Of a DNA stretch of 64,000 bases, positions 1 to 51,179 are shown in pieces. The DNA comes from Apostichopus japonicus. Taxonomy: Eukaryota; Echinodermata; Holothuroidea; Aspidochirotida; Stichopodidae. Position numbers and translations under genes: made by a program. The stretch spans positions 1,709,501 to 1,773,500 of the forward strand of contig NC_092572.1 of assembly GCF_037975245.1 (NCBI RefSeq), written 5' to 3'. Each line of letters opens with the position of its first letter. The stretch's first letter is position 1. The notes under the pieces are model-generated. The model searched no databases, had not been told where the DNA came from, and saw only the letters and a list, made by a program, of their open reading frames with translations.

Positions 1-600
1 ATCAAAAGGGGAGGGAGACACCCCCATATACCCCTCCCCCAGGACGGCAATTCGTGGTATGGACCAGCATTTGCCTTCTCAAGAGTTGGGAGCTATGCAA
101 CCATACCATTAACGACATGTCTCTCTAGGGGATTGAATCCTTAGGTTGCCGTCCTATGCTAGTGCGAATCAGCAGAGAGAGTTTGTGGATGCTACGCCTT
201 CGCACCATTCAACCTCATGGGCTCAACATTCAGGAAGGACATGACTAACTTTTCTTCATTCCCCCTCCTTCTCCCCTTGCCCCCCCCCCCCCCCCCATTA
301 CTCCTCTTCTCATAGCTTTTTCCACCTTTTTTTCTCCACACTTTTCTGTCTTTGTCCTTATCCCGGTTTATTCCCTACCCCTTCCCTTAATCCTCTCTTT
401 GTCCCTCCACTGTTTATCTCCTACCTCTCCTCTTCCCCTGTTGGTTTTTATCTTTCATTCTTCTCTCCATCCCTTGTCTACTAATCCCCTTACATCTATC
501 TCTTTGTGTTCACCATGCTCATTAACCTGTCTGTATTATGTGCGTGTTTTTTTTCTACACAGGCTCTCTAATGGATAAGCTGTTTGCTCACAGTTTTATT
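1..600 (+). mobile_element. 3' fragment of a Penelope-like retroelement (copy 1)
   Basis: About 85-600 matches the reverse complement of the element at 59955-61250: the end of its GIY-YIG coding region (around 85-145), a long pyrimidine-rich 3' UTR (about 240-530) and a shared end near 570-600. Compared with that copy it lacks about 100 nt just before the 3' end, so the hammerhead-like segment is missing here. The 5' part runs off the window, so the type of truncation cannot be judged. It lies outside any recognised gene. Seen: the sequence match between the two copies. Known: GIY-YIG endonucleases are typical of Penelope-like elements. Confidence 0.7.
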
Positions 601-3600
601 TTATTTTGAACTCAAGTATTGAAGAACGTTAGGCCAGAAGCAAGTCGTTTCGTCAAATAACAGTACATAAGCAGCACACATTCAGTCACATGTTTATAGA
701 GAATTACACGACGAAACTATTCGCATTTTATTTCTTCAGCAATTTCTCCAACAACAATCGGCAGCACGAGATCATACGGCCCATATGACTCCTTCCATAA
801 CAACTACCTGCTCCCACGAGCTGGAATAGCGTTTTCCCAGCAGTACAATATGCACTGTTCCATATAGCCAATAGAAAAATTGCGTAACTTGCATAGCACA
901 CAGTACAATTACACAGTATGCCTATAGGTTACGCAACACTGAGAGGCAGATTAGAATCTCGGACACCTGATACCTTCGCGGTAACGGTACCCATTTGCGT
1001 ATGCTGTTTATAGCTAAGGATGAGAATGCCATATTAAAGAAATGAATATGTTGCCGCTGTGAGAAGAGGGCAGCATTGTTTTTACTTTTTAATCGGGGAA
1101 TACGTTGAGACAAGATTTTTGATTTTAGCAATTTCCTAGCTGAGAGTGTGCCTTTAACAAAATGGTATTTGACGCAACAATGTATTGTAGCTTAATAAAT
1201 GTTATCAAATATAAATTTAATTAATGAACTGCATGTGTAGTTTACATAGTGAATTGTAAGGAAACTAAAGTATTATTAATCGAAATAAAACTAGAAGATG
1301 TAAGCTGATGAAGTATTTGGACTGATTTGGAAGATAATGAAACACCCTTCAAATTAAATTAAGTGGGAGTTTCCTTTCATGCACCTGTTAGCTTAATGTA
1401 CAGCGTTACATAGTTTTGAAGGAGGAATTAACTTGAATTTATTATTCTAGCTACATAAAGCAAGTTAGAATGTTCAAGGTGAGAATAAAAATACACAATT
1501 AAGTCTAACAGAATCTACGACAATAGTAATAAGGTCATTCGTGATAGCGATGGTATTTTTTGTTTATTAGAAATAGGAAAAATATAGGAACGTTCCACAT
1601 AGAAGGAATTTGCTCGTAATAAAGAAAAGATAAAAATATCTATCCAAATGTTGGTGAACTGTTTGGCACAATATTTCAGAACCTTTATTGAAAGTTGGTC
1701 TAGACCGGTCGCTTTCGAAACATCGTAAACATCATCTCATGTTAGTGATCGACAGGTTTGGCATTCATAACATTAAGCATATGTTAGGATTTTTGGTGAT
1801 GTTCAACCTGCTTCCAGCAATCATAGCAACCAATTCGATTGTAGATATAAATGAGCTAAACAACCATCAATATTATGTCCTATACCTAATGATATGGGTG
1901 ATTGCAGAATGACATTTATAAAAAATGCAATGTATTTTCAACTCACTTGCTGTGATTACATCAATTATGCTGATGATACCAGATGCATACAAAAAAATAT
2001 CACAAAAAAAGAAATATATATCTGTGGTTCGAAATATAGATGTTAGATTCAAGACTGGTTGACTTTGACAAACGTTGCTCTTTAATTTACGTTAAAAGTA
2101 ATCTGAAGTGTTTTTCAAAAGAAACATAACTAACTGGGTAAAGCTTCAAACTCTGGAAAACTGTGACTGGTTTTCCTTCTTTTTATCCAAGTACCATGTT
2201 CAAAGTTATAGATCGTCTGGGTGTCAATATTCTTCCAACAACCGCCTATTGAGTATACAACTGCAAAATATAATAAATACCAACACTTGATTAGCTATCA
2301 CATTCTTCGACTAACATTTCAACGGACTGAGTTGTTACTGAACGACGACAGCAAACTATATGATATTATGTTTCAGCTCATGCAAGAAGAAATTCAGCTT
2401 TACGAAGCTGAGTGGGTTGACAGCTATTAGATTGATAGAGAATATAATATAACTGAAAGTAAATATTCTCTTGTCTGAAAAAAAACTATTAACCTTTCAA
2501 TTTTAAATTAAACTTGATTTTTGATACTTACTTGTAAACCTTTTCTGCCTCTTTACAATTTTACCAAGCTGTGTAATATTTTCTTGAGAAAGTGTATTCA
2601 TAGCGCAATTGTGAAACCTAAGAAAAGGTAGGAAAACACATTTATTCATTTGGCACATTATCTGTCTCACTTTCATGTTTTAATCTTCATATCTGAAAAT
2701 GAGGAAACAATTACGTTATAGTTAACCAGCTTACACATGAATTCATGAATCAGGCGTTAGCCGTTCAAAAAAGGTAAACTAGAACATCAGTGATATTTCA
2801 GATCAATTGTATTTCCCAAAGTGAATTGCACAGCCTGTTTCGAACAAGGAAATATTACACTGTGTATGTTTGTTTAGCGACAGAGAATAACTCAAGTTAA
2901 TTAACAGTCACTTGTCGAAACACTTGTCGTCCACTTGCAACTAATTGGAAACTTTGGAGTATTACGTCCATGTATCACCTGAGAGACACATTCTAAGACT
3001 TTTTTTGGTTCTGATTTTATCTGACAAGCCCTTATTTACCGTATGTGACATGAGCATGTTTGGACCCGGCATCATCTCAAACGACATGCAATCTTTATCT
3101 CGTGTGAATCATAAAAGAAGCCCTAACATGGGCAACAATGTGTACAACTTTCTTCGTGATCAAGCATATATTGTAAGAGCATAACCTTTGGAACTAATGT
3201 TGACAAACATATTGATAGATACATAAACATTTTGCTGTGGCGTTAGCATTTACAAGCATTTTCTATCGTATGTTCTAATCTCGGCATCGAGTCCACGCAG
3301 TAATTAGCTAACTGTTACTTAAAAAGGGGCAAGCCCTTGTTCCTGGATACGGCTGTTCCCCCCAAACACAACTGCAAACACAACAGACCGGTGAAATGAC
3401 TTGCAGCACAAATTTTAGCGCTATCTTAACAGCTGTACACTCCGTATGACAATTAGCGTGTAACGTGAACGACAATAATCGACTATTACAGTCTTATCAC
3501 ATGCCGTAGTGTTTACTTCTGACGTAATTTGAATTGTCCGGCAAAACATCAGATATTTAGACGGCTTTTAACTTTCCTTTCCGTAAAATTTTGCCTTTAA

Positions 3601-4375
3601 GCACAACACCTATATCAAGCATGTACAATAACTTCAAATACTATGTTCAAACCTTCTACGAATCTAAGTACACTGTTATATATAAGATACACAATAACTT
3701 ACTGGAGCAGTACGTTAATCTTTTTAGCGATGTAAGTTACGATCACAAGTATGACGTTGTCTTCAAGTTTATTCTTACTAATCACAACTCGTTCAGCATT
3801 TGGTAATGATAAGTTCGTGAGAAACTGTACAGAGAAGTCCCCCTCAAAAACGAATGTCCCATTAGGAAACTATTGAAAAATTAAGAGAAAACAATACTTA
3901 AGTATGATTCTATTCAATAAGTATGAACACGAGTAGCATCAAGTGTGAAGTCGACTCCATATTATCGTGGCAACCTACGGTATCTCCGATTAAGTCAGAC
4001 CAATCCACCTAGTTTCAGTTCAATGCCCCAAGGGTGTGAGGTGGGCAGCAATTGTAGCACAACATTTAGTAAAAGTGTTCGATAGAGTACAGTATATAAT
4101 GCCCAGTACGCTTTGTATTGGATGAGATCAGTTTAACCATAGTTACTACTACTACGTATTAAATAGAATAGAGACAACGTTCATCGGTGCAGTTATATCT
4201 ATGGAATATTTATGTGAAGCACTCATTTAACAAGTTGATGTTGTTTATGTCTTAAAGGTAAATACGTATTTTTAGTTGATTTGGACAGTGGATGAATTTG
4301 TTTCATTATTTTACCATATATGCAACTCTTAAAACACGTAAAACAAAACAATCTAAGTCTTACATTTTCCTTTCT
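601..4375. other. intergenic stretch with no supported gene
   Basis: Only short scattered ORFs of up to about 80 codons occur here, on both strands. None shows a recognisable domain, a signal peptide exon with a fitting donor, or a link by phase to the receptor genes. The stretch is AT-rich and follows the 3' end of the minus-strand NACHT receptor gene. Confidence 0.5.
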
Positions 4376-6111
4376 TCAGAAAGTGAGAAAGTCTTCAATA
4401 GCATGTTGATGATATGGGATCTCCGTCTTTGTAATAGTAATATCCGCCTTCTTCTTTATAATATTAATCGTTCGCTGTTTTACTAGAAGGTCAACTTCAT
4501 GAAAGCAATCAATAAAGACATTCCACATTCCTTGCTTTTGAAGTGCATCAAGAATTTGTGTTTGCTGAGTGTTATCGTCGCTTAAACCAGTAACGAACAT
4601 TAAGGCAGAATTGAAATCATAATTTGTCAATTTAGTTTGGCAGGATAACATATTTCTCGGTAGATTCTGCAGGAAATAATGTCCCAAAAAGAATTCCTTA
4701 AAAAATGGATACGCAGCATCGACACAATTGTCAGGACTCACTGTACTAAGAGTCGTCTTTGAATGGTGTGAGTCTAAATTGTTTGAATCTACTTTAAGGA
4801 GTCCTATTAACAAAGCCGCTTGAAGTGAATCGTTCCGACTTTCTTCTTGCCAATACTCGATTGATCTCTTTCCTTTACAGAACGCTTCTCCAATGGTTCT
4901 TCTTAGTGCTGAAAACTCAGACTTTTCGCAATGTTTGTTGTTTCCCTTTGTGACATAATGTCTTTCCATACTATTGACGTGTGCTTCCATGATATGTGAT
5001 ATACGACAATGATCGCAATGTTCATTGCCCTGTTTCGTTACTTCCACGGCGTTTAAATACAACCTTGTTGTAACGAATAATGGAACCTTATACAACTCTT
5101 TCAAGAATTCTTTTGAATAACTGAAGGAATAAATCATTTTCTTTACGATGTTTTCATCTACCATTCTATCGTGTTCCTTCTGAAACGAGTATGACTGCAT
5201 ACTCAAGATTGGCTTGTCAAGATCCCCGGTACAACTTTCATCATTTATAGGTTTACTTTTGATAATATAGTCCTCAGGATCAGTGCTTCCCTCTGAGCTA
5301 GCTAAAAGAGAACTATTTTCCGTTATTGGTTGCTTAATTTCTTCCTCGTGGTCTACAGTTCTAGATCGATCATGGTATAAATACATTTTTGCACATAAGT
5401 CTTTAATTTGGTTCTCATTGAATCCCCTCAACTCAATCGTGAGGAATTTATCGGGATATGAGAAATTTAAGTTACGCGATGCTACCCACATTCTCATTTT
5501 GTGATTTTGCTGTACTGTTGTTGTTAATTGAGCAAGATGCTTATAATTATTTTCTTTAGTGTCCAATTGAGTCCCAAAAGTGCTTGCTTTAGTAAGGTGT
5601 TCTTCCTTTTGCGTTTCCTTCCATTCGTGGACATTTATCGTACTGCACAAGTCACTCAATCCGTCAATGAGAACAATTACAGGTTGATCTGACAAGATTT
5701 TCTTCACGTCGTTGGTTTCTATTCCTGAGTCATCGGGAACGTCAGTCATTATTAAATCAATGAGATTCATCTGATAATTACTGTCGGTCAGATGTATGTA
5801 AATCAAAACGTAAGTTTTTTCGTCTTGTTGGATCCATTGGCTTAACATCTTCAGAATCAATGTTGTTTTCCCAAATCCTAGACCAGCCGTCAAAGCCACC
5901 CATTTTTCTGTTGGTGGGTTTGAATACAGTGTTTCTGTAGATACTTCGTATTGTCTCTTGTCTTTCGGTCTTTTAACTATGCACTGGCTGTCCACGTAGA
6001 TGGTATCAATATCAACAGAGACCGTTTCATGGTGAAAGAGGTTGATATAAAGGTATTTAGCGTAACTATCACAGAGACAAGAAATGAACCTTGATAGACT
6101 CTTATCTTTTT
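4376..6111 (-). other. NACHT exon of gene 1
   Basis: A single 1736-nt exon encodes the whole cytoplasmic NACHT part. The acceptor TTTTGCAG is at 6112-6113, and the first two bases complete a codon begun by the TM exon. The segment before the P-loop (...VDIDTIYVD...) resembles the linker that precedes the NACHT in echinoderm-type NLRs. Gene 2 splits its C-terminus over three further exons, whereas here the reading frame stops about 10 residues after HQHAIEDFL. Confidence 0.85.
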
Positions 6112-9100
6112 CTGCAAAATGAGAAGATAAAAAAAAAATTGCCTAATCAAAAAGGTCAATTTGTAACTTTATAGAGAATAAGCTCTTGTCAAAATATTCT
6201 ACAATGCCTTTCATTCTTTTAGAAAAATCAGGTTTTTCTTCTTATTCCCTTTATTCCCCAAATTCCCAAAATGACTAACCATTTTCACATCATGCACACC
6301 TCAGATTGTTTCAAAGGGCTATTCTTGACAAGCCAACACCTACCTAAAGACACTCACATAACCTGCCGGATTTGATGGTTTATGCTGCTATACCAGCGTT
6401 AACGTCAAACTCCGCCTCTGCCCAGCATGGTACTTACAAGGTAGATTGTCTGCAAGATCCACCTTTCGGAATCGGATTCTTTCACCAGTCACAGTATACA
6501 CGCAAACAAAGTGTTAAATCACTCAAACTATATCAATGTTTTCCTTCCTAATCTTCTTTATCACCTACATTACTAAGTACCTCATTTTGCTACTCCCGTC
6601 AGATTTGATATCCACATCCCTGAGTCCTCTAATTGCCTTTTCCTATCATATTTGACGTTTCTATTTTGTTATAGTCTTTGCTCACTTCCCGAGTTTATCT
6701 ATATGTCCATCTGCGTGTCTTGATTTGTTGTCAGTTTGTATTCGTTTCACTTAGCTCTGAATATCCTGCTGGTATCAAAACGTCAGACCCTCTAAATTTG
6801 ACACGTTCATATACATGTTTTGGCCTTGTTTTAGCAGTAAACAACAGTTTGCTAAAACGTTTGCAATATGTTTTAAAAATTTGATATCAATAAATCAACG
6901 AACTTACTATTAAGTGATCTCTGTTTCCGCGATCTGGTGTTGAATATTTCAACTTTTTTATGCGACCCTTCCTGAAAAGTTAAGCATAATAAATTCTCAC
7001 ATTATTATTTTATAAGTTTCTACATTACTATCTTTGATCGAACATTTTCGAAATTTTCAAGAATATATTACATTAAAATAAATGTACAGTTAGCTCTCTC
7101 AAATACCAATGTCAAGTACTACAATTATAATGAGGACATCATAAAGGCTTTATTAACAAACTTTACCAAAAAAAATATTGCTGTTAAAAATTATGGGGAC
7201 CTTACCTGTTCATTCATTGCAATGGTAACTTCTTCGCTTTTCGCTCTCTCACCTGTTAATAAACGGTATAAAAACTTACTTGGTAATATTTTCAATTAAA
7301 GTGCGTTAGTCATGTTTGGAGCCTATTTTCTCAGCCTTAACGTCGCAGATTTGCTTGTTCCTACACATTTCAGTTAAAGTGACACTTCTTTTTTTCTCAC
7401 TTTTTGTGACTAAGTGTGAAGGATGTATATTGAAGTGTATATTATGATATTTATCATCAAACATAAAAAGTATCTTACCAGACTTTTTCGTTTCTTGCCT
7501 TCCATTAGTCTTCTTTCGTACACAAAAAGTCAGAAGAATTAGAGTAACTACTAAGATCACCCCGACGAGAGATATCACCACCCACAATAACCATGATGGA
7601 CTATGCAATTGTGGAGAAACTGTAGAAGTAATTTCAACAGCTGGCTCTCCTGCTGGACAGGGATCTATATACATAGATGAAATTAAACAGTTTAAACGGA
7701 AAACGTTCTGTAATCAACTAAACATGTAACAACACAACAAGTGTACAATCTAGACAATACTTGCATCACGTGTACTTGAGTGAGTACCTATGTTTATCAT
7801 TCGCGTGCATTTTGAACCGTTTGTTTGACTTACATACCCTACGTAGACTGTTAGACACTTAGTATTTCTCGAATAATCCTAACCGCACGTTATCGCCCTC
7901 AGAATGTACCATTTTGTGTGTGTTTGATTTCTTATTATTATCACTTGTTTTGCAAATTGCTGTGTATAAGTTACATGCTTTAAAAGAACATTTCCGTTTT
8001 CTATTACTAAAATAGAAGTCAATTACTATCACGTCGAACCATTAAAATTCAATAATTCATGCTCTAGAAGGAATCTAATTGACCCTAGTCGGTCAACATC
8101 AACATAGGCATGTATATTACAAACGCTGTCACAATTACATAGATAGATCTATTGGATAGACGCGTTCACTGACACTTAATTTGGACTAACCAGAGGTTAC
8201 CCTGACGTAACTGTCTTTACGGTGCAAAAGGTTGATATCATCTTGTGCCAGACATATTATATCAGCAAAACCTCCGCATGTGTCGAACGAGTATTTGGCA
8301 GATGTAGATGTGTCCCATGTGCCCAGCTTTTCATTTTTCTGTGAAATTGATTCGCCTGTAGTAAACTGAAGATGCTCGCTACGTCTAATCTCCAATCGAA
8401 GCGGTACTTTTGGTCGAGATTCAGTTACTATACACTGTAACTGGCTCGTTCGGTTTATTTGTAGGGTACAATTCAAACATGACGAACACTTAGCAATCAG
8501 TGGACATCCCTGTCGTGGACTGACTGGAAAAAAATATATGCAATTCATATTGGCTGTTTTTTAAAGAAAATGAAAACTTGCATCCCAAATTCTATGTCTT
8601 AATCAACTATTGCTCTCAGTGCTGTTTGAACGCGTTCTTCTTTTAGGCGAACAACAGAGGCACCAATATGGCACGTACGAATTATTTACAACAGAATATA
8701 ATGTTTATATTACAGGAAGAATTTATAAGTGAACAATACTTTAAATAATGTCATTGTCTATTGGCTTAACCACTAACAAAATAATCAGATAAGGGGACAT
8801 ACTGAAAATCAATTTCAGACTTTGAACCAAGACATACACTAATACGAGAAGCAAATCTACATTCACCAAAAATGTTCATCAAATGCTTCTCGTTTAAGTA
8901 TTTGGCTGGATTTCGTATATATTTGTCGTTGTATCTACAAGTGATAATTAACTGTAACAGTGACAAGTGAAAGAATATGAAGTACCTTTTATGCTAACGT
9001 TAATATTTTCTACTTCGTAATTTCCTGTTGCAAAGAATGCTGCAACGGTATAAACAGCCTCATCCTCAATTTGGGCGTTCGAAATAATTACATCGCCGTT

Positions 9101-10121
9101 TGATGTGATGTCAAATCTACTGCTGCTATACATAGTTCCTGATTTGAGGTTGTTCTCCAAAGAAAGGATAGGACTTGTCCTGGATGGCGATCCATTGTAC
9201 CAAAACACATCTGTTGGAGGGTCAGATGTATTGCATCCGATCGTTGCATTGTGTCCTTTCTCGATGACAATATTTGACGGACAGCTAAGCTGTTCACCTA
9301 TAATCAATTAAAGATCATTAATGTTGTGTAACCTGTTGGCAGGCAACCATTTATTGGTATATAATTGGTAAATAATATTATAGTTAATATTGCGCAGTGA
9401 TTATACATTACTAGATTTCATTTCAATATTTCAGTGGTTGCCAAAAACGAAAACAAAATTGAAATCATCTAGTTTCCCTGTTTTTTGGATAAACTGCTCA
9501 CATAAGTAGGAACTGTTTTATATGGTGGTGATCGTTATCCATGGGTGGATTTGTTTCACATGTTTTGAACGTTTAATGCAGCGTTGATCAACGGAGATCC
9601 CACAAACGAAAAATGGTATGGCATACTATGTATTTTGACGACTCGTTTGCTAATACAGTTGCGTGAGAGTTTACATTTTGTTGTTATGTGTTAAAATGAT
9701 GTGTTTTTTATATTTTCTTTCCATTTCCCTTTCCCTTTCTTCTCCTCACCTCCCCTTCCCCTCTTGAGTTAGAATTCGATATGCAAATATATTTCAACAA
9801 TTATCCAATTTGCTTCCACATCATATCACTCCCAATATCTTTCACATCATAGCCCCCCTTTTTTGTGATTAAGAAAATCAGTTAGGTGCTTTCATATACT
9901 GTTAGTAAATTTCCTCAGTGATGACGTTGTCTTATTTTAAATTTTGTGGATCATATTTATTACGCTACTGATTAACCAATAAAACAGTTAGCGTGTAAAA
10001 GCCCTGGCCAATGCTTATTACCAATGTTACGGAGTATATTTTAACAATTTTACTTACCTGTGAAAGCACTAGGTGCAAAAACGAGGACAAGCCAAGCCGA
10101 GGTTATTACAGGCACCACCAT
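4376..10121 (-). CDS. Ig-Ig-TM-NACHT receptor, gene 1 (876 aa, 5 exons)
   Basis: Predicted type I membrane receptor with a cytoplasmic NACHT NTPase. Exons on the minus strand: 10058-10121 (signal peptide, MVVPVITSAWLVLVFAPSAF), 8986-9297 (Ig1), 8191-8523 (Ig2), 7479-7664 (stalk, TM about residues 261-283, basic stop-transfer) and 4376-6111 (NACHT to stop). All internal junctions are phase 1 with GT-AG sites, so the spliced frame is open for 877 codons. The NACHT part shows Walker A GLGFGKTT (about 375-382), Walker B VIVLIDGL (about 443-450) and a C-terminal helical region with YPFFKEFFLGHYFL, then HQHAIEDFL just before the stop. The start was chosen because the 64-nt exon gives a hydrophobic leader and a phase-1 donor. 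It faces a plus-strand receptor pseudogene across about 670 nt. The architecture is seen in the sequence; a signalling role is inferred from the NACHT family. An extra small exon near 7198-7247 was rejected because it breaks the frame. Confidence 0.85.
6560..6885 (+). mobile_element. degenerate Penelope-like 3' end in an intron of gene 1
   Basis: In the last intron of gene 1, opposite to the gene. Positions 6752-6820 align with the minus-strand 3' region of the Penelope-like element at 60010-60075: TATCCTGCTGG followed by AAAACGTCAGACC, against CATCCTGCTAGG and GAAACGTCAGGCC. The upstream stretch is pyrimidine-rich, as in the other copies. It is heavily diverged and its 5' boundary is unclear. 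Confidence 0.45.
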
Positions 10122-10789
10122 GATGCATGTGCGCTATGACAAAACAAAAACAATGTGAGATAACATGCATGGTTTGCTGAAGTAGGCTGATGCACGTTAC
10201 ACGTGAGCATCCCATACACATGATAAAAAATAGTTTTCTCTTTCGATGTCAATAGTGTGCTTACTACTAGACAAAGGGAATATATTAAGTATGGAGGAAG
10301 GCGTGGATTAAACAAGAAGTATATATTATGTCTTAGCATTGCAATGAGAAGTTAGAATATGTTTGCTAAAAGTTGGTCCTATGAACATCTTGGAGCGATC
10401 ATATTTATGAACACGTTTGAGCTATCAGTTTAGTTTACCAAAATGAAACGTTCAACGTTGGTTAGATTGAGAGCCTTATGTAAAATGAGTTGAGATATCA
10501 CCGTTCATTCAAAACGTCACATATAAAGCAGTATCAATACGTTAGTTCTAGTTGTGATCGTCAAAATTACCTAACTAAATTATTGTCCTACAGTTGATGA
10601 ATGCTAAGGCATTTTAAGTTGCCGTACTCCCTTACACAGTTTTTAAACATTCCCTCTAGGTAACCGTATACGAATGATGCTTTTACCTAGACTATCAGCA
10701 GAGTAAAACTCAATTAACCTTCCTGTTCAACTTTCATTCATATATCTGTTTGTGTTTTCTCAGTAGGAGCTAAATAATAATCAAGTGAG
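10122..10789. promoter_or_regulatory. shared divergent promoter region of gene 1 and pseudogene A
   Basis: 668 nt separate the start codon of the minus-strand NACHT receptor from the lost start codon of the plus-strand receptor A. No other coding exon is seen. The A-proximal part is similar to 22205-22789, which separates the relic minus-strand leader exon from receptor B. Shared regulation of each pair is inferred from this geometry; I did not identify specific transcription factor sites. Confidence 0.45.
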
Positions 10790-13700
10790 ATTTTTCTGTG
10801 GTTTCAGATTCATTGTTCTCTGTGTTTACAAGTGATCTTCTTGCCAAAGGTATACATTAAATTTTAACTTACAGATAGCCCCAGTTTGTTGTGTACTGAT
10901 ATCAATTTTGGTATATGATTCCTTCCCGTGTTTCAGAAAAGCGACAATTCGACCGTGAGTGTAACAATGGGAACAGGTCGACCAGAAATCATCATGTGAA
11001 CTACCTATGCTCGCGTAAATCATCGATGTGTTTAATTTTCAATGTATCGACAAATAGCAGCAGTCTTAATTGGTACAACGACATCAACCTTACCCTCGCC
11101 AGACAAAATATTCAAGAAATTAACTAATGAAAATGTCGCAGTAGATCAATTGCCGTCATCAAATTATTCAATTATGGTCTTTACGCCTTGCGTAAAAAGA
11201 AAGCCAGCAAAGACTAAGCTTATCATCCTCACATTACAAGGTACATTTCTCAATATTACGATAAGAGAAAACTACCATATGAACATATTTTAATTATGAT
11301 ACATTTGACATGTAGACAAGCTTATATGCATATATTAAAGACTTCAAGTACTGACTTGGAGTTGAAGTCCAGTTATACGTTATATTGTAACTTTATCTTT
11401 TACTAATTTCGTTTCTTTAATAACGGCACAAGTAAAAACAATGTATAAATATAAATAAATTTGTGTGAAAATGTGTTAATTATTATAACTCAACTTAGTT
11501 GTCCGTTGTTCTGCTCTTTTCTGGTTAACAATTATTTACTTTTCTCCAATATATTAGTGACGCCAATTGTTATTATAAATGGAAGCAAATTGAACACAGA
11601 GAATTCGTTAACTGTTAAGTCAGATAAGAATATAAAATTTGAATGTATTGTGATCGAAGCAGTTTTACCAATAACAACTAGATGATACACAGACAATGTA
11701 ATGAAAACGGACAATTTCACAGAAGTCTTCAAAAACGCAACAGTGGCAATTTCATATTATACGGAGCATGTCACCTCATATTTTAAACTGAATGTTGTTC
11801 GGAAGGTCTTTATATATCGAAGCGAACGACGTCCGTATCGATAACTGTTTAACAGACCGTAGGTAAGTTGATCATATATACACCAATTAAAGCTTCATTT
11901 TGAATTGAGAATATAATTAAGATAATGCTAATGAAAAGATACATTTCTTTAAAAAAAAGGCTATTACCGTTAATTAGGGATACAACATTTTTTGTATTGG
12001 ATAATTTTTTTTTTTCAAAGCAGATATCAGCACATTGTTTTGACACATTTTAATGAATGTTGTTACATTATGGTGATGAAATAATAAAGTATGTACAATG
12101 ATATAATCGTAAACACAAAACGTGGAAAAGCTAACAATCAATCATATCCATTCACAGTGCACCTAAGTGATCTTATGTTCGAATATGAAATATTTGTTGA
12201 GACAATTTGCGTTTCTCCGTCACCAAACGAATGAAAGAGTTCGCAGGTTTGGATTAATGTTGTAAGGGGTTTCCCACCGTCTGCACGCAAATACGAATAG
12301 GCAGTATAGTCTACGCAAAGTCCCTCTAAAGGTAGTTTCCCTAATTTTTGGTTTTTATATATGCCCAAAAAAGGGTTACCTGTATGCCAATGATCTTTCA
12401 CGCATCAAGTTTCTGGTCAGTAAGAATCTGCTAACTTTGACATCAAATTTCTTTGAATTACCGTCTCTTTCGACTAAACGGGCTTACAGTATCGTTTTTG
12501 CACTAAAATACTTTCGGATGCGCATCCAAAAAAAATTCTCCTCAAGCTATGCATTTAAAGTTGATCGCAATTATATTGACGTATTGGAATTCTACTTAAG
12601 GCGCAGAGTTAGTGAACTGTCATTTTACAAACTTGTAATTGTCGAAAACAGATACTCTTACGTATGGGTTCCAAACAGAAATGATATGTATTTCATTAAA
12701 CATAAATAGAAACATGGAAGCTATCTTGCAAATAGCACTTAACATTCATCTTAGCTGGATATGCGCATACAGTTTACGGTTATGCTTACTAAATTTTCAT
12801 TTGAAATTTTAATATGAGTTTTAGGTGTGTTGTTTAAGTTGTTAGGTCGATATATTTGCACTTGTAATTCGAAAATTTCTGACACATACCAGTATTCCAT
12901 TCCGAGCTTCACCATTGCAAATATTTATAGTTCAAATTAATTAGAATTCACAGAAATATACAACTGTTCGTTTGAAGAAAATAAATCGGTGGTCAGGAAA
13001 GGATTACCGATTGCTTTAGCTATTATATCTACTCTCCTTGGGATATTAATGATTTTGTTTCTTCTCCGCAACATGAAGATAATAAGTGAGTATCAGCAGT
13101 AGAGCGGTTTTAAATGTATCATTTAAATGAAATTAAAGTGTTGGATCACAACATTACACTTAGACTGGCAAACTTTTATACCTTAATGCCTCTACAGGGA
13201 TCGATCGCGTACAAAATTAAATACAATTATGCAAATAGTATTTGCTTTGTATATCTTATACATTGATGCACCTCCATTGAAAATCAAATTAACACTAATT
13301 GGAAACGGTGTGAAACTCTGTTGGTTTCTTTCAGCATTAATGCAGCAACGGTTTGCAAGAAGGTAAGCTCCCATGCAGTGACCGAAAATAAAGGCTTTTT
13401 TTTAGTAGATTGGATAATATACAAATGCATAAATCGTTCCATGCTTTATTATACAGAGAAACTTGTTTTGGATAAAACTTGAAACGTTTTGTAGAGATTG
13501 TGCTCAACGTTAAGGAATTGTTTCTAGAAATTTGGACTATAAAGTACCCTTTCAGTTTAAAACATTGGTTGGTGTATTTCTCAATGACCTCTATTCAGAA
13601 TTGAACCATATTATGAAACCGTAACACAACGAATATTGTATTTTAAGTATCACCTAAAATGAATGTAACTGGTATTGGTTAACGTACAAGGGATGGTCAT

Positions 13701-22040: not shown

Positions 22041-22789
22041 TTTATTCTCTCAGATGGTTCTGACAAAATGCGCCATGTTTTATAGAAATACCACTTGTCT
22101 TGTGTGCATGTGGTATTCCTTTTGCATAGCGTTTTCTGTTATACACTTGCTTGTATTTTGAACCATTGTTTTGACTAAAACGCATCACCTATACTATTAG
22201 ACACCTAGTGTTCTCTTAAGATCTGAAACGAACGAACTGCTAAACAAAGAGGAGGCACTATGCACTGAGGAAGGCGTGGATGAAATATAAAGCATATGTT
22301 ATGCAGTATTATTAAGTTAGAGTACAACTATTTCTGTAAATGTATTTAATAAAAGGAACCTCTATGAACAGCGTGGAGCAAAGATGTTTATGAACACGTC
22401 TGAGCTACATAGCCAACATGAATTGTTCAACCGATACGTAAATTAAAATGAATAAAGCGTACGTATCATGACGTGGTATTACTTCAAAAAGTCTCACATA
22501 AAGTTGCATCAATGTGTTTGTTCCAATTGTGATCGTCCGCCAAAGATTCCAAAGTACCGTTTTGAGACGTACAAACGATCATAATAAGTGCATTACAGTT
22601 CGTGAACATTAACGTCTTTGTAGTTGCCGTACTGCCCGAAACGAGTTGTCGAACGTTCCTTCTAGGTAGCCGTAGAAATATGATGCTTCACCTCGACCCA
22701 CAACAGAGTAAATCCGATCAACCTTACTGTGCAACTTTCATTTCTATTTTTGTTTTCTCTCAATAGGAGCTGCATAGTTACTAAATAAG

Positions 22790-24050
22790 ATGTGTGTGTG
22801 GTTTCAGATCGTTTTGTTCTCTTTGTTAACATTTGATCTTCTTGTAAAAGGTAAATATTTTATATTAACCTACGTATCAACGGCGGTATGGCGTGTACTG
22901 ATATTAATGTTGATATATATATATTCCTTCCATCTTTCAGGAGAGCGGCGATTTGACCGTGAGTGTAGCTATGTGAATAGTTCGACCAGAAATCAGCATG
23001 GGAACTGCATATGCTCGCGGAGTTCATCGATGTGTTTAATTTGTAATGTGTCGAAAAGAATTGGCAATCTTAATTGGTACAACGACATCAGCAACCTTAC
23101 CCTAGCCAGACAATCATTCAAGATACAAAATACTGAAAGCTTTGAGGTAGATCTATGTCATTCTTCAAATTATTCCATTCTGCTCTTTACGCCTTGTATG
23201 AAAGAAAATCAAGCGAAATACTCATGTCGTCAAGGAGAGACCATGCTTATGACATTCATCTTGACATTACAAGGTAAATCTCTCAGATGTTACGTTAATA
23301 TTTTGTACCATATGAGCATGTCATAAGTTAATACACATTTAACATGTAGAAAAGTCTTTTATACATATATCGAAAACTCCCATTACTTAATTTGAGTTCA
23401 GTTAAACCCCGAACCTATTTTTTATTTTACTTTTAATTTGTTTCTTCAATAATGATTATATGTTTGCTGTTTTTAAATATATTGCTTAGTACTCCACTTA
23501 GCTGTTCGTTGTTCACTACTTTTCTTTTATAAATCATTAGTAAATATTTACTTTATTCCAATATATCAGTGATGATAATTGTTATTATAAATGGAAGCAA
23601 ATTTAACAAAGAGAATTCCGTATGTGTTAAACGTCGTTAACAACTCAACAATCCTCATTTCATATTATACTGTAATATTGTCAGTTGTATTGTTCTGTGC
23701 AATGTCCTCATATATCGAAGCGAACAACGCTCTTATCGATAATTGTTGTAAAGAACGATGGTAAATTTGGTCACTTATACTTCAATTAAAGCTGCAGTTT
23801 GAAACTGACTTAGTTAATACAATGCTAAATCAAAGATACAGTTCTTCAAAACAAAACCATTAATATTTTTTATTACCTTAAATAAGTAATGCAACATGTC
23901 TTGGATAATAGGTTATTTAAGGCAGCCATCAGCACATTGTGTGAATATGTTTTTGAATGAATTTTGTATTATTAACGTACATACAACGTGTGTTATGAAA
24001 GCAGCGACCACGGATATGCTTCGATATCTCGCAAATTTTCCGAAGACTAA
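22790..24050 (+). pseudogene. Ig receptor B, truncated paralogue of A
   Basis: Leader exon 22790-22850 (MCVWFQIVLFSLLTFDLLVK) and Ig1 exon 22941-23273 (333 nt, phase 1 to 1) are intact. Ig1 carries eight or more cysteines and the W of the Ig fold in LNWYND. The Ig2 exon near 23570-23640 has lost about 100 nt relative to A and soon stops. The TM and juxtamembrane exons are deleted. A remnant of the tail exon remains at 23994-24050, reading YESSDHGYASISRKFSED then TAA. The intact leader and Ig1 exons could instead be spliced to the TM exon of the pseudokinase gene at 28919-35087, whose own ectodomain I could not find. The phases would fit, but this is conjecture. Confidence 0.6.
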
Positions 24051-37126: not shown

Positions 37127-40100
37127 TTACACAACGGTGCTTTGAACTAAAGACGTCGTTTCGTCCTGTTTACTCTTTATCCAATTTCCTTCTTCAAAGT
37201 GTAGGTTGAAGGCCTCCTCATCTTGTTTGCGATTGACTGCGAAAGAAATGACAACCATGTTTACATTTATTATTATCCTCTCATCATGTACATATTGAAT
37301 TTGAAGTTCCAGTCGTGAATATATTAGCCTATTTACCATCGGCTAATTTAAAAATGTGTCTTTGGTGTCATTTTAACCTTACACGGTTTACTTTGAAGTT
37401 AGGTGTCAGGCACATATGTGGTGACGGTCGTAATGAATACGAGAGTGTCTGAGTATTTTGTCTTCTCTAATTAGAACAATATCCTTGGTCTCACAAACCA
37501 TCATGATCTTGAAATGGCCTGCTAGAATAAATTAATCAGTAACAAAACAAACAGATGAATAACCCATATGTAGACTTATCGTGCTTAACGTACGTTATTA
37601 GTCATCCTTAGTTGAGATATCCTTACCCATATAAGAAAAAAAAGGCAAAGTGCACGCTTCTTTTGAAGCTGTGGTTACATGGGTAACATACTGCTACTAT
37701 AATTATGGTGACCATTACAATTAAGTATTTGGGGCTATGGATCTATTTATATTTAAGCCTAATGGTAATTTAAATAAATCATTTTAGACATATCTCTGAT
37801 TGCACTGTCTATTACGTGACTTACTAGTAAGCTTTATTTCTCCTTCAGATGTCTGACGAATTAAGTTCAATTGATCTTCGGAAACTGTCTGTGGCACAAC
37901 GCTGTTAATGCAACTAGTATAAAATGAAAATCAAGATAGAGGACTTATTATCTGAAATGACTGTATTGTTCAAGTGATAATTTAAGAAACTATCAATTCA
38001 TATATTCAAATTTTAGTAACCAAGGGCTCGACCTGTTTGGCCAAGAGAATCTAAGAGAAATTAATGTGGCATCATTATTTTCAACTAATAATTAACTTTG
38101 TTAACGAGAAAATAAACTAATTTTGAATTAATATATTGTATTCCAAGTGCTACTAGTAATGATATACTATAGGAATCATTGTTCAACAACAGTGATTGTG
38201 TAATAATCAGGAATAGATATGTGTAGAAATTTGTATTTTCATTTCATCGTCAGTGCTTCTACTGTATTGAAATGTTAAGTGTGCATTGCATTAATGGTTC
38301 TAAACGCACTATTCGAATATAAAGTTGTATATGATGAAGTGAGGTATGTGAATAAATGAGCTATGTTAGATAGAAATCTCTATCCAGTAGGAAGTTGTAA
38401 CAGAACGGTTTTCCTGTTTTTTTTATTTTTTATTATGCAGTCTTTTAACGTGTTTCAGATTCGGCTTACATTCAGATATTGAGTTTCCATACTCCAATCT
38501 ATTACATACACAAAGGTACCGTTGGCCAAAAAGGACCAATAAAGTTAATAGTTCGATATCACTTTGAATATGCGAGTGCATGCTGATGTAAACCAGCTCT
38601 CCATTGATGACCATCGGTATCGTACTAGCTAAATTGTTAGGGGACAGCGTTTATCATGTAATGCTACTATCAGCATAAGACTAGTACAGTACGAAATATA
38701 ACAAGTTGTATTACTTTCAATTACAGACATGTTACAATAAACACATGCTAAGGTCACAAAAACATTGAAACAAACGTATAGCCCGGTCAAACGTCCAACC
38801 TTAAGCTATCAGGAATGTTAACATTTTAACTTGAAGGCCTAGATCATGAGAAATGCTTACTTTTAAACTTACTTTATTGTTATAGTTTGGGTTGAAAATC
38901 TTCTGATGAGACTGGTGAATTGTTTATCTTCTAGCCTAACATTCTGGAACGTCAGCTCCTTCTCCACGTTTGGTAACTTACAGCTATCCAATGACGGTGG
39001 GTAACCATCACGGAATGTCAATGTACTGACCGTAATCTGCATTAACAATGAAAAAAATTATTGTTCAGAAATGTTTCTTTGACAAATTTATTTCGTTTAA
39101 GCGACCGTAGCGTAAAGGTGATATGTTTATGAATTTACCAGAATAGAAAATGTATTCCACGTTATTGTTCTGTGCCGTGGCAATATTCAGATTGGAGTAA
39201 TATTTTAAGATCTCTTCAAACAGGCTTCTATATATTTTGAGTTGTCATTGTCACTTTATTCAGAGGTCATGAACACATCTAGTGCGAACCATTTCCGAAG
39301 TTATCTCTATCTCAGTATGTACAATGTGATATTTGAATCTAATCTGTGCTTGAATTTACGCTGATAAATTGGAATTGTAGTATTATTTTGCAAAAGACTT
39401 TTCTTATTCTCGACTTGTGTTACTTTGTATTGAATTTTGCGATAGTGGTCTAGATAATTCTCTTTTCGCTTACTGAACAATACATAATATCAATATTGAT
39501 ATACTTACGTTTGCTCCCATGTACCTGGTACACACATCTTTCACTAAGCTCATATTGTCTTCATCGTTGACATTCGTAAACAACAGGTCCTTTCCTTCAA
39601 AAATATTTCGTATTTGTTTACTTTTCTCTTCATCCTTACACAATTCGAATAATGCCCACAAGAGCTGGAAGTGTTTAGTGTGACTCAAGTGTATTTGATT
39701 ATTATCATTGTGTAAAAGACTTCCCATCAAATTTGCTATCATAATTGTTGAATCTGTCTTTGCTTGCAACTTATTTTGGTATTTCGGTATCAAATAATTT
39801 AATGCGAATGCATAAAACACTAGAGGACATTCTGTAATAACATCAATGGATTCCGGTAAGGTTGAATCCTGAGAAAGCAGACGGCTCTCCTCACCGCTAT
39901 CTTTAGTTTCTTCGAATTCATTGACGTTCAACTTTACCATCTGCTGCAATAAAGTTTTTCTTTGATCCTCGTTGAAGCCTTTCAAAATAACTTTCTTATA
40001 CCTTCTACTGAATTCGATGGTATTTAGTTGACGACACGTTACCCAGACTTTTAACTTCTTGAAGTTATCTAAATTACTTAGCTTGTAAATGTCTGCAGGT

Positions 40101-43100
40101 AAACTGTTGGTTTTGCTTTGTGTGTCACTTTTGGAGCCTTTTTCTAAATCCTTGTTTTCCAAAGTCAAGTTAGTAAGGCCATCAAGAAGCAATAGACACT
40201 CACGCTCTTGCAAAATATTGGAAATAGCTTCAACTGATTGGAACTGTCCATCCATAGATTTCACGACCTCTTCTAAAATACAAGCTTTCTTACAGAAAGG
40301 TTTCAGTTTGATATATATCACGATTGCATTCTGCAGAATTTCCCCTTTGGCCCACAGTCTTGCCACATGTTGAAATAAATACGTCTTGCCATATCCTACT
40401 TTACCGGTAAATATTACACAATCACTGTTGTTGAAGAATGATTCCTTAAGTATATCGTCACTGGTAGCAGTTTCCGCATCCTCCTCCGAAGTCCTAATCA
40501 CGCAATCACACGTCGCGTAAGTGGATTCAGCAAAAGCATTGAATTTCGTCAAATAATATTTAATCAATTCGTCCTTCAATGGATCTGCGCAAACTAAGAA
40601 AAACCAGCAGTGATTACGAATTTATTATGAAAGCTGCTTCAGTCATTTTTTATGGAACTTTTAAGACAATATAATGTGTCATATGTGCATCAAATGTTGT
40701 TGTTGGTGATAAAACTGCTTTCTAAATTTTATTTATACTATTGGAGCAATGGAACTTCCTACTCGACATGCGATTTTAACCCGAGTTGTTTGGAGATACG
40801 TAATTTTTATGTTATTGTTGTTGTTTACCATTACTTGAAGCATATAGGAACATTAAGTTTACAACGTCATTCGTCAAATTGATATATCTGACAGAAATCT
40901 TCATGTCATGCGACAAACATATGAACATCAGTTCTATAGTCATTATTAAACGTATTTTGGGCATTTTCTAGTAGATATCTTTACAACAAACTACGTTCCT
41001 TTACCTTTCCTTTTGCGAGATGTTGTGTAACTTCTAGTGAGGCAAATATATATGACAATACAGATAATCGCAACAATGATCACCCAGATGAAAATGCATG
41101 GTATGAGATCGAGTTTGAAGCATCCTTTCTTCGGAACATTCGACGGTGTCTCGGTAGACATGGCATGACACCTTTCTAATTGAAAGAACAAATAAAACAA
41201 AAATTATATAATGTTTTAAACATATTCAACAACTTATCTGAAACTATTAATCCATGTATATTCTTAGTCAACTCACGGGCATTTGGAAACAGGTAGGTTA
41301 ATAACAGTTCTTCTTTAACATGGTTGTCCATTGAACTCTCATTCATTGTATAATGTTTACTCCAACGAATTAACATTAAATGATCGTCCCTTTCAGCTTT
41401 TATCGGCATTTCAATCTTTGCTGCGTTGTTACAATTCTACCACCATGCGCTTGCTTAACATCACTAATTAGAAACCTAGGAAACTAATTTGGATATTTCA
41501 GTAAGTCACAGGTTTTTTAAAAGCTCATTTTAACACTAAACTTACGTTAACCATTTCCGAGTTTTCCTACACATTTTTAGAGGAAAGTTTTCACAGACAT
41601 AACTTGCAATGCATATTTTCACAACTAGGGCAAACTGTGAACTATTCTTAAAACATAAGGAAAACTCCAAAACATGTGTATTTGTAAGTGGAGATGGGCG
41701 TAAGTTCTCGTAGAGATCTTTCCATAACATTTGTTTAATTCCATTGTTTTAAACAGGAAGGGGTCTACTAAAACGAAATAATGCATTCGTTGATATTTGT
41801 TAATGACTTACAATAGAAAAAGTCTCATTGCTACTTTCAGCCTCAATGAAAGCATACCTGAATTCACTTCTACTTTTGCAGTTAATGAAACATTCAACAG
41901 CCACCCGTCGCTATAAATATAGCAATTAAAGACTGTTGTTTCTCCACATGGCATTTCGTAGAAGATTATAGTCGACACAGTCCATGTATCTCTGGTATGG
42001 TTCGTTAGTTCAGAATGCGACTCGTTCTTTGTAACATTAGCGACTCCTTCATATGTCCAGTACATGACAGGTTGTGGACGAACTCCCTCAATGAAACAAG
42101 TCAAGTTAGCAGTTTCGTTCTCAGGCAAAATGACTTTACATTTTTCACACTCGGCACAAGCTCGGATTTGAGGACACAGGTGTGTTGGTGTATCTTGAGA
42201 ATAAGGAAGAAACAAAACTTAGGCTATTCTTTTACTTGACAAGTCTGCTATTGTTTCAGTGAAACCGTTGTTTGTTCCATCTATGACTTTGATTTATTCA
42301 CATGATTCTATGAGTAATGATGGAAGAATCCTCTTAAAATAGACAAGGTCAATGTTGTTTCTTTTATTTTACTTCTTAATACCTAAAACAAAATATTTCA
42401 TCAAGAAAGTATATCCTGACTTGACGCTCTTCTCTCTGAGGTCACTGTTGTAAACGATACCGTAATTGGCAACACAACCTTAGCCTAATCTACGAGTAAC
42501 ATAGTAAGATGTGAGGGCGTCTGTTGTTCAAACATACAAACTAGTGTATAGGCCAAATTAAATAATGTTTCTTATGATACTGCACTATAATAAATAAAGA
42601 CATGCGTACTTGTAATGATCACTGATATATCCCGTGTCCAGACAGAGTCGTTGGTAAAGAACGCAACAAATGTATAGATAGCTTCATGCTCCAGCTGTGC
42701 ATTCTTTATCGTCATGTCACCATTCGGAGTAATATCATAATGTCCATCGTTGTACTTAGAGCCGCCCATTTTACCGTTTACCAATTTAAGAATTGGATCA
42801 GTCTCTGACGTTGAACCCACATACCAGTAGTACCGGTTGATTTCAGCATGATCATCACATCGTATCTTGTTAGTACCCATTATTTCGATAAATTGAATCG
42901 AAGGACATGTATCGGAAAACCCTGTAGTTAAGAAGAAAGTCTTTATTATATATGTTTCGTTGGGGTCTACCGGTGACTACGAAATACGTAGTAACAATAG
43001 GTTATCAACAATGCCATGTAACGTTTATTTTTAACAATGCCATGTAACGTTTATTTTTTTTCTCTTCAAGACGTTGGTGAAGAATAATTTTTCTTTATTC

Positions 43101-43288
43101 AAAAGTGGCTGTGTCTACAAAAAATGCAGTAGATTAATCATGACCCTATAAAATTACATAGTGTTTTCTTAAGAATGATATTTGTTTAATAAATATTTTA
43201 AACATTATAAGCAAAGATAGATACCTCCGACAAGAACGCTGGACAAAATTATCATAACCCAAAGCATCTTAAACGTGTTAGCATTCAT
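37127..43288 (-). CDS. Ig-Ig-TM-NACHT receptor with LRR-like C-terminus, gene 2 (769 aa, 8 exons)
   Basis: Minus-strand exons: 43225-43288 leader (MNANTFKMLWVMIILSSVLV), 42610-42921 Ig1, 41858-42193 Ig2, 41005-41175 stalk and TM (about residues 261-283), 39509-40584 NACHT, 38873-39036, 37825-37901 and 37127-37236 to TAA. Junction phases 1,1,1,1,0,2,1 keep one frame for 770 codons. The first two exons are 64 and 312 nt, identical in length to gene 1. Walker A GKVGYGKT lies at about 355-362, followed by Walker B LLLLDGL. The NACHT exon is shorter than in gene 1 and lacks its FFKEFF region. Exon 6 (STLTFRDGYPPSLDSCKLP, LTFQNVRL) resembles leucine-rich repeat edges of NLRs. The last exons are charged and polar. 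It converges with gene C and diverges from receptor D. The role is inferred: surface ligand binding coupled to NTP-driven assembly. Confidence 0.88.
39509..40584 (-). other. NACHT exon of gene 2
   Basis: 1076 nt; acceptor TTTGCGCAG and donor GTAAGT, phase 1 in and phase 0 out. It directly follows the TM exon, so the NACHT begins within about 60 residues of the membrane, as in gene 1. Sequence identity with gene 1 is low outside the P-loop, Walker B and the KVWVTCRQLN / RMWVASRNLN sensor-like strand, so the two genes are old paralogues and not a recent duplication. Confidence 0.85.
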
Positions 43289-49229: not shown

Positions 49230-50560
49230 GGATTCTCAAACGCAACGAAAACACCTTTCAAAGGAAAATGTGCAGTTTAGATGGAAGGTGGACCAAATCA
49301 AGCCCACCGCTCAAGGTTATCTTTTACAAAACGGTCCTTTTGACAAGATTTGGTTTGAGCTTTCCCCAAATGAAATAAAAAATGATCCTCTCCAATCTCA
49401 CCAAGGAATGATCCGGTGCAGCGATCACCGTACCCAGGATACCAAAGGAGAGGAACAATAAAACGATTAACAACTGTAACCTTCCCAGGGAGAGAGAGCC
49501 ACCTCCGACTGAATGTGTCGAGCCTTGCCTCCACCTGATCAGCCTTCTCGGCCCAAGTGGTGGCCTCCGGGGCACCATAACCTAGCCAGATGCCATTTAC
49601 CCTGATCATGACATCTAACCAAGTAGCATCAAATGGGAGGGATTGGCCGCGCCAACCTCCTTAACGCAGCCTTTTGGTCTTGGACTTGTTAAGTCTGGCA
49701 CCAGTAGCCTCTTGGAAGGTGGCCAAAACCTTCGATAAAGACTTGAAGGAGGCGAGGTCCTACGCAATACAAGTGACGTCATCGGCATATTGCACGCTTG
49801 TAACTCTAGCCTTACCCGGTACATTGAAGGGGTTGAAACCCAAGCATCTGTCCAGCGAGGTACTGAGCGTTTCGCTGAAGAGAACATACAACAACGGGGA
49901 GAGGGGACAACCCTGACGGACTCCCCTATGAACCGGGAAGAGACCAGAAGTTAATCCGTTAACATTGACCATGCTCGAGACGTCCTTATATAGTAACGAG
50001 ACCCAACGAATAAACACTGAGTTCAATCCGAAGGACTCTAAGGTTCTGAACAGAAAGTCGTGATCTACCATGTCAAAGGCCTTCTCCTGGTCCAAGGAGA
50101 CCAGTACACATGGCAAATCACGAACTTTAACAAACTCGATCAAGTCTCTCATCAACCAGAGGTTATGTTGAGTACAAGTCTGGAGAGGACCTACAATATC
50201 CGGCATCACATCCGCTAAGCGATTTCCTAATGCTTTGGCCAGGATTTTGTAGTCCACAGTTGACAGCGTTATTGGACGCCTATTTGGGTCCAAAGGGTCT
50301 CCCGACTTTGGGAGGAGAACAATATTTCCAACCCGCTGTGTTTGGCCTTATGTGATTCAACTGGAAAGAGGTAGCGAACACGTCTCTCAAGTCCCCACGA
50401 GAACCTCCCAGAAGGTCCTATAGAAGTCAGCAGGGAGGCCATCGGGACCGGGGGACTTTCCCTTCTTCATCGCTGCTACCGCTGTCCAGAGCTCACCAAC
50501 GGAGAGATTCGAACCCAAGCTATCGTTTTTACTCTGAGAGGGGGGGGGGGGGGTTGTCGA
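49230..50560 (-). mobile_element. fragment of an L1/Tx1-like LINE ORF2 (reverse transcriptase)
   Basis: The longest open part, 49760-50293, holds reverse transcriptase blocks: RPITLSTVDYKILAKALGNR, LVSLDQEKAFDMVDH, RGVRQGCPLSPLLYVLFSE and the catalytic QYADD. Upstream, KKGKSPGPDGLPADFY is seen in another frame. Downstream, WLSLPGKVTVVNRFIVPLLW and FHFIWGK-like blocks (49298-49609) are in further frames. Frameshifts and stops show it is dead. It lies inside the foldback element, so it is a nested insertion or was captured by it. Confidence 0.85.
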
Positions 50561-51179
50561 TACCAGACAACAAGTCTTCCTGGAGATCCTCGCTAACAGC
50601 AGCCCTGGAGTACAGGTTTGAAACGAACGATCTAAATACTTCAGATGACTAGTGACCTGACTTAGCGTGTGTTGTTCGCAGAATTGACGTTGTGTTTATG
50701 AAGGGTGCACAATCGTACAAAATCTCCCAATGAGTCGGTATTCACATCTGGTCGGTTTTCCCTCAAGTTACCCTATTATATAGTTGACTCAATGTAATTG
50801 CCCCCTCATTTGTTCATTTCTGATTTTTACAGCCAGATATATGACATTTCCTTTTTTGCTGGCAGCCATCTTGGATGTTGGCCGCCATCTTTGAAATGGG
50901 TTGCCCAAGCAACATGCCATGACCATCATCTGTTTCAGTGAACCCGGAAACACCTGAATTGACCCCTCATTTGTTCATCTCCGATTTTTACAGCCAGATA
51001 TATGACGTTTCCTTTTTTTCTGGTGGCCATCTTGCATTTTGGCCGCCATCTTGGAAAATCGGAGCCGATCAAGTGGGTTCCACTGATAAAATTAATAGAT
51101 AGGTCGAAAAGAAACTCCATGCCAAATTTGGTACTTTTGTCCGGCCGGTAACGTTAAAGTTGCTAAAGCCACCTAACTA

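Follow-up and report, generated by a model that had tools for sequence, protein, structure and literature searches.

Predicted immunoglobulin-transmembrane-NACHT receptor genes of the AjNLRC4 type in the sea cucumber Apostichopus japonicus: two gene models and a clustered family

The window described here is a stretch of 64,000 nucleotides from the sea cucumber Apostichopus japonicus (contig NC_092572.1, positions 1,709,501 to 1,773,500). The contig carrying it is called C12, so that the window is C12:1709501-1773500. Two genes of the same layout lie on its minus strand. The first, gene 1, is designated W when it is compared with its close paralogues A, B and C. Its exons, in window coordinates, are the following, Ig1 and Ig2 denoting the first and second immunoglobulin (Ig) domains and TM a transmembrane segment.

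10058..10121, minus strand: exon 1, signal-type peptide (64 nt, phase 0 to 1; A and B retain the ATG)
8986..9297, minus strand: exon 2, Ig1, V-set (312 nt, phase 1-1; Pfam V-set)
8191..8523, minus strand: exon 3, Ig2 (333 nt, phase 1-1; Ig by homology to the gene 2 exon)
7479..7664, minus strand: exon 4, stalk and single transmembrane helix (186 nt; by hydropathy)
7206..7252, minus strand: exon 5 (47 nt, phase 1 to 0; by conservation, absent from the earlier model)
6908..6971, minus strand: exon 6 (64 nt, phase 0 to 1; by conservation, absent from the earlier model)
4364..6111, minus strand: exon 7, NACHT NTPase and helical region (by Pfam and fold; in-frame TGA at 4378-4376)
3703..3869, minus strand: exon 8, tail past the apparent early stop (open in W, A, B and C)
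2532..2617, minus strand: exon 9, tail past the apparent early stop (open, with splice sites, in W and A)
2130..2260, minus strand: exon 10, tail past the apparent early stop, with the terminal TAG in W (in A the frame is shifted)

A preliminary description of this DNA had proposed five minus-strand exons (10121-10058, 9297-8986, 8523-8191, 7664-7479 and 6111-4376), and all of them are borne out by GT/AG splice sites and four phase-1 junctions. They do translate into the 876 amino acids proposed plus a stop, but two conserved exons, 7252-7206 and 6971-6908, sit inside the intron assumed between 7479 and 6111, and the direct junction of these two positions is not borne out as proposed; exons 5 and 6 add 37 codons in frame, giving 913 amino acids. 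Both are kept without indels in four of four copies, the flanking introns having indels, and exon 6 is bounded by a CAG acceptor and a GTAAGT donor in all four, the acceptor of exon 5 having to sit 3 nt earlier in copy A. Among W, A and B their dN/dS values are 0.20-0.42 (exon 5) and 0.62-0.82 (exon 6), from few sites. Including or omitting the pair leaves the frame intact, so these two exons may be optional. Conservation is the one line of evidence behind the models of exons 5-6 and 8-10, and by these models the 876-amino-acid product probably falls short of the full gene model and probably differs from the typical product of the family.

Gene 2 has the following structure.

37127..43288, minus strand: gene 2, same layout as gene 1 (773 amino acids, no internal stop)
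43288-43225, minus strand: signal-type peptide exon
42921-42610, minus strand: Ig1 exon
42193-41858, minus strand: Ig2 exon
41175-41005, minus strand: TM exon
40584-39509, minus strand: NACHT exon
39036-38873, 37913-37825 and 37236-37127, minus strand: three tail exons

The lengths of its first exons (64, 312, 336 and 171 nt, then NACHT) are nearly equal to those of gene 1. The two genes share only 21% identity in NACHT, and gene 2 is of a different NACHT subfamily. The window also contains other features, as listed below.

57639-58091 and 58790-59170, plus strand: open reading frames in opposite orientation to the two genes, possibly another Ig receptor gene (the second matches Ig_3 at a sub-threshold 17.4 bits; the first has no Ig match)
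10900-11127 and 22778-23326, plus strand: cysteine-rich open reading frames similar to each other, resembling by eye two copies of one exon (no Pfam match for 22778-23326)
49298-50695, minus strand: open reading frame pieces, resembling by eye a LINE-type reverse transcriptase split over frames
60511-61080, minus strand: open reading frame of 189 amino acids, resembling by eye the terminal part of a retroelement polyprotein and including a GIY-YIG-like stretch

The preliminary description had read gene 1 as a leader, two Ig domains, a TM segment and a NACHT domain, and a Pfam search of the product supports this in part. The Ig1 exon matches V-set well above threshold (36.7 bits against a cut-off of 26), and profile searches match it to CEACAM, Robo and antigen-receptor V domains, that is, to Ig-superfamily receptors which, like gene 1, combine V- or I-type domains with a single TM. 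NACHT is marginal (27.9 bits for the exon alone, 26.7 for the whole product, cut-off 26.7), and Ig2 of gene 1 has no Pfam match. Gene 1 Ig2 is called an Ig domain because the homologous exon of gene 2 (30% identity, cysteine pattern in common) reaches Pfam "ig" with 22.2 against 21.8 bits. The AlphaFold model of gene 1 Ig2 (mean pLDDT 67, six strands and one short helix) is weakly Ig-like; in Foldseek it matches mainly Ig domains and a few others such as DsbD, the best E value being 0.0058 with no match below 0.001. As to the NACHT exon, its structure model (pLDDT 69, pTM 0.70) resembles NLRC4, NOD2 and NLRP3, with a best E of 4e-12 (NLRC4), and a profile search finds NLRC4 at 4e-8 and also NLRP3. 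The Walker B motif, usually DGLDEL in NACHT domains, is DGLSDL in gene 1, and G78, G80, K81 and D149 are invariant in an alignment of 12 NACHT sequences including both window genes, from which copy L014 was excluded as it contains a stop. Gene 1 has the V-set domain of Ig-superfamily receptors and a NACHT that reaches the Pfam cut-off marginally. The remaining features of the NLR family, a C-terminal LRR and a CARD or PYD, were not found in gene 1 by Pfam or, for LRR, by PDB profiles: the Pfam listing for the 876-amino-acid product has no CARD, PYD or other death-fold effector domain, and Pfam gives no CARD or recognised LRR on this product or on the tail.

Gene 1 is accompanied by close relatives on the same contig, namely A (C12:1674145), B (C12:1223399) and C (C12:1256239), whose Ig1 exons are 83-91% identical to that of gene 1 as against 40% in gene 2. 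When the TM and small exons were used as queries, five matches were obtained: the TM exons of W and of these three NACHT relatives and the small-exon region of W. Copies A and B have the signal-type peptide, Ig1, Ig2, TM, two small exons and NACHT in order. Copy C keeps the exon order, but Ig2 is missing, a start codon was not found at the expected place and the NACHT frame is broken. Furthermore, a distant fourth copy near C12:2026122 has Ig1, Ig2 and the TM exon in order upstream of NACHT. The order of signal peptide, two Ig domains, TM and NACHT in one gene, as first described for gene 1, is shared by A, B and gene 2, by the distant copy from Ig1 onwards and by C minus Ig2, and as a pattern of genomic exons it is far beyond chance.

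Among W, A and B, dN/dS is 0.36-0.52 for Ig1, 0.29-0.37 for Ig2, 0.52-0.78 for NACHT and 0.49-1.02 for the TM exon (copy C was excluded for Ig2 and NACHT, the one missing and the other broken in frame, and kept for the other exons). These genes look constrained by this measure, the Ig part more than NACHT. Diversifying selection on the Ig domains was considered and is not seen, dN/dS being below 1 for Ig1 and Ig2 in this small set of W/A/B pairs.

A genome search with both NACHT exons gave at least 71 merged NACHT relatives, at least 64 of them on C12, where the listed relatives lie at 0.7-2.3 Mb (36), 7.5-8.2 Mb (13), 13.2-13.6 Mb (7), 18.1-18.4 Mb (7) and elsewhere (1). Among the 71 listed, at least 49 have an Ig1 or Ig2 relative upstream on the same strand within 12 kb and at least 32 have both Ig types upstream, whereas Ig matches lie downstream in 8 and on the opposite strand in none within this distance; these counts use all 150 Ig1 and 46 Ig2 matches, are to be read as lower bounds and were the same with 56 Ig1 matches. 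The contrast between upstream and downstream is the stronger control because neighbours in arrays share a strand bias; in addition, 12 of the 14 downstream Ig matches sit upstream of another NACHT gene. Conversely, 42 of the 46 Ig2 relatives listed are followed within 12 kb by a NACHT relative on the same strand. No Ig match was found within 12 kb of 22 of the 71 listed, and some of these may have diverged Ig exons and others none. Matches to PF05729 (n = 106) are mostly other NACHT genes, their union with 43 matches of the NACHT-exon search amounting to 147 genes; an Ig2 relative lies within 12 kb of 0 of the 106, and an Ig1 relative lies upstream within 15 kb of 8. Gene 1 belongs, by these sequence matches, to a large family that is mainly clustered on one chromosome, and no count of an Ig-TM-NACHT family was found in the open-licence literature of PubMed Central. 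Members L014 (C12:1818197) and L041 (C12:1257667-1263400) carry stops or have lost exons, which suggests that the family is under birth-and-death evolution. A separate cluster of Ig1 and NACHT relatives at C7:15.54-15.82 Mb may be a further Ig-NACHT subfamily.

The preliminary description ended gene 1 at the in-frame TGA at 4378-4376, which is probably an early stop and not the natural end of the gene. The TGA is located 12 nt upstream of a splice donor conserved in the alignment, its position is a sense codon in five of five paralogue copies compared (A, B, C, L015 and L016), and three more exons lie downstream. Exon-8 relatives are found directly downstream of seven NACHT genes, W included. 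W and A both have exons 9 and 10, copy A ending slightly earlier after a frame shift; the two exons were not found in the approximately 4 kb examined downstream of copy B, and relatives of them lie behind copy C and, behind B, near C12:1207181-1207698, about 15 kb past its exon 8. The tail of gene 2 also consists of three exons, with phases equal to those of the gene 1 tail and 22% identity to the tail of A. The tail has no domain recognised by Pfam or by PDB profile search. Leucine-rich repeats were considered for it, since exons 8-9 look repeat-like by eye and one exon is 86 nt long, and were rejected: Pfam gives no LRR, and the PDB profile search returns no LRR chain, its best matches looking unrelated.

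From the alignment, the TGA of gene 1 looks like an early stop that has shortened this copy. By the usual rule, a message whose stop lies 265 nt ahead of the last junction should be subject to nonsense-mediated decay. Because the stop precedes three exon junctions and such decay is expected, the gene 1 copy probably yields either a product lacking the tail or little protein. It may even be a dying pseudogene, whose tail was removed by the stop, whose message is decayed and which supplies no receptor though its siblings make one, and we give this reading a little less than an even chance. It agrees with the confinement of the TGA to W among the copies compared and with tail exons still open behind the stop, and sibling C, without a recognisable start codon or Ig2 and with its broken NACHT frame, looks broken. 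However, no other lesion is seen in gene 1 and its NACHT region is whole, and the nonsynonymous/synonymous counts by lineage (W 76/40, A 88/29, B 82/43) show no relaxation in W; therefore, the stop arose recently, is tolerated, is polymorphic or reflects an error. The pseudogene reading concerns W only and is compatible with the explanation of the family preferred below.

The preliminary description knew of no named family with this domain order, and in this respect it was mistaken, the kind of receptor being already published in the same species. AjNLRC4 (MN607598) is described as a receptor in the membrane that has two Ig domains, a TM and NACHT on the intracellular side (PMC8699970, 2021), and AjNLR-new (PIK48001.1) combines the same domains (PMC13133943, 2026). 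AjNLRC4 is reported to be located on the cell surface, to bind microbes including Vibrio through Ig with Ca-dependent agglutination, to dimerise through Ig and be internalised, and to bind actin by its intracellular part, leading to Arp2/3-driven phagocytosis (PMC8699970); a complex of its Ig domains with caspase-1 is reported to lead to MLKL cleavage and lytic death (PMC11932488). In these accounts, both dimerisation and caspase-1 binding are attributed to the Ig domains and not to NACHT (PMC8699970, PMC11932488). AjNLRC4 and gene 1 are alike in having, by prediction in the case of gene 1, an Ig-like and an Ig domain outside, TM and an intracellular NACHT, with no CARD and no recognised LRR, and the genomic exons of gene 1 have the layout of this type (two N-terminal Ig domains, TM and NACHT in one gene), Ig2 being assigned by homology. 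They differ in that TM and NACHT are reported at 483-503 and 600-757 in AjNLRC4, whereas TM of gene 1 is at 262-280 and its P-loop near 412, so that the ectodomain of AjNLRC4 is the longer one by the reported positions. They differ also in that two TMs are reported for AjNLRC4 while gene 1 has one TM and a signal-type N-terminus by hydropathy; the two-TM count is treated here as a prediction about AjNLRC4 and not as a defining feature of its type. AjNLRC4 and gene 1 are probably separate genes of one kind, the comparison being made with its published description.

Vertebrate NLRs are cytosolic proteins with CARD or PYD and LRR. Gene 1 resembles NLRC4, NOD2 and NLRP3, by profile and fold, in NACHT and the helical region following it, and is unlike them in its N-terminal Ig domains and TM and in a tail in which no LRR was detected. 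We know of no V-set receptor with a cytoplasmic NACHT outside sea cucumbers, and none was found in the open-licence literature of PubMed Central.

With regard to topology, the Kyte-Doolittle hydropathy of gene 1 has an N-terminal signal-type segment (1.98) and one TM (3.09, residues 262-280) with RKK soon after, and that of gene 2 has a signal-type N-terminus (1.82) and one TM (3.38); the signal-peptide call for both is by hydropathy only. Basic residues follow TM in both genes, gene 2 having in addition three lysines within the 15 residues before it. N-glycosylation sequons number six in gene 1 and seven in gene 2 before TM, and 3 and 4, respectively, after it, which makes them weak evidence of topology. 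Because each window gene has a signal-type N-terminus and one TM, NACHT would be cytosolic in both. AjNLR-new is similar to gene 1 in having Ig, TM and a C-terminal NACHT in one protein, and differs in its length (1197 amino acids) and in being published as inverted, with NACHT outside and Ig inside (PMC13133943). The inverted claim is based on TMHMM, on cell-surface binding of injected recombinant NACHT and its blocking by an antibody, and on membrane colocalisation of a TM-NACHT fragment in 293T cells (PMC13133943). That the product of gene 1 is likewise inverted is very unlikely, as the structure of gene 1 points the opposite way with its signal-type segment, its one TM, the sequons in the Ig part and the basic residues after TM. 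TMHMM can score a signal peptide as a TM, and an error of this kind would give rise to the inverted prediction for AjNLR-new; this suggests that the published topology is worth retesting.

The joining of Ig, TM and NACHT in gene 1 was read from genomic exons, and the open reading frame of the NACHT exon is open upstream of its acceptor, so that a pair of neighbouring genes was considered, one for an Ig-TM receptor and another for a cytosolic NACHT protein with a start of its own. Such an arrangement is highly improbable in view of the phase-matched junctions, the linking exons in four of four copies, the way in which Ig and NACHT occur together throughout the family and the publication of AjNLRC4 as one protein (PMC8699970). 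Read-through of the TGA, for example as selenocysteine, to make the full tail is the least probable of all, since, in spite of the cysteine codon opposite the TGA in relatives and the open frame of the tail, no Rfam match up to E 1 and thus no SECIS was found in window 1-10600 and a one-step nonsense change is simpler.

A membrane-anchored NLR-like receptor with extracellular Ig domains and cytoplasmic NACHT, as the preliminary description proposed, is the best reading of gene 1. We consider it very probable that gene 1 is a sea-cucumber transmembrane NLR of the AjNLRC4 type, composed of a signal peptide, a V-set Ig domain, a second Ig domain, one TM, a short basic cytoplasmic linker, NACHT with helical domains and, in relatives, a three-exon tail, and likely acting by ligand clustering. 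By such a mechanism, the Ig ectodomain on coelomocytes would bind microbial surface ligands and dimerise or cluster, the clustering would gather the tethered NACHT domains inside, and the cytoplasmic part would recruit effectors for uptake and lytic death. Surface location, binding, dimerisation and actin-dependent phagocytosis, as well as caspase-1 activation, are published for AjNLRC4; the first four may extend by homology to the family of gene 1. NTP-driven oligomerisation of NACHT, which the preliminary description had coupled to extracellular recognition, is plausible from the fold; nucleotide binding is likely to matter because the P-loop positions are invariant, and NACHT clustering may be nucleotide-driven.

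What is added here to the published receptor is a large clustered family with a shared exon plan around the AjNLRC4 kind, exact and testable gene models with a tail absent from the earlier model, and a simple account, a signal peptide read as a TM, of the puzzling topology of AjNLR-new. The remaining interest lies in the family size, the clustering, the tail, the early stop in W and the topology. As a wider and rather doubtful proposal, sea cucumbers may possess a germline-diversified repertoire of dozens of surface NLRs, encoded mostly in clusters on a single chromosome. Their V-set ectodomains would directly clamp NACHT switches together inside the cell, NACHT would be cytosolic in all members, and the published inverted member would be misassigned. 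If this is true, the repertoire would represent inflammasome-type sensing of microbes that are outside the cell.
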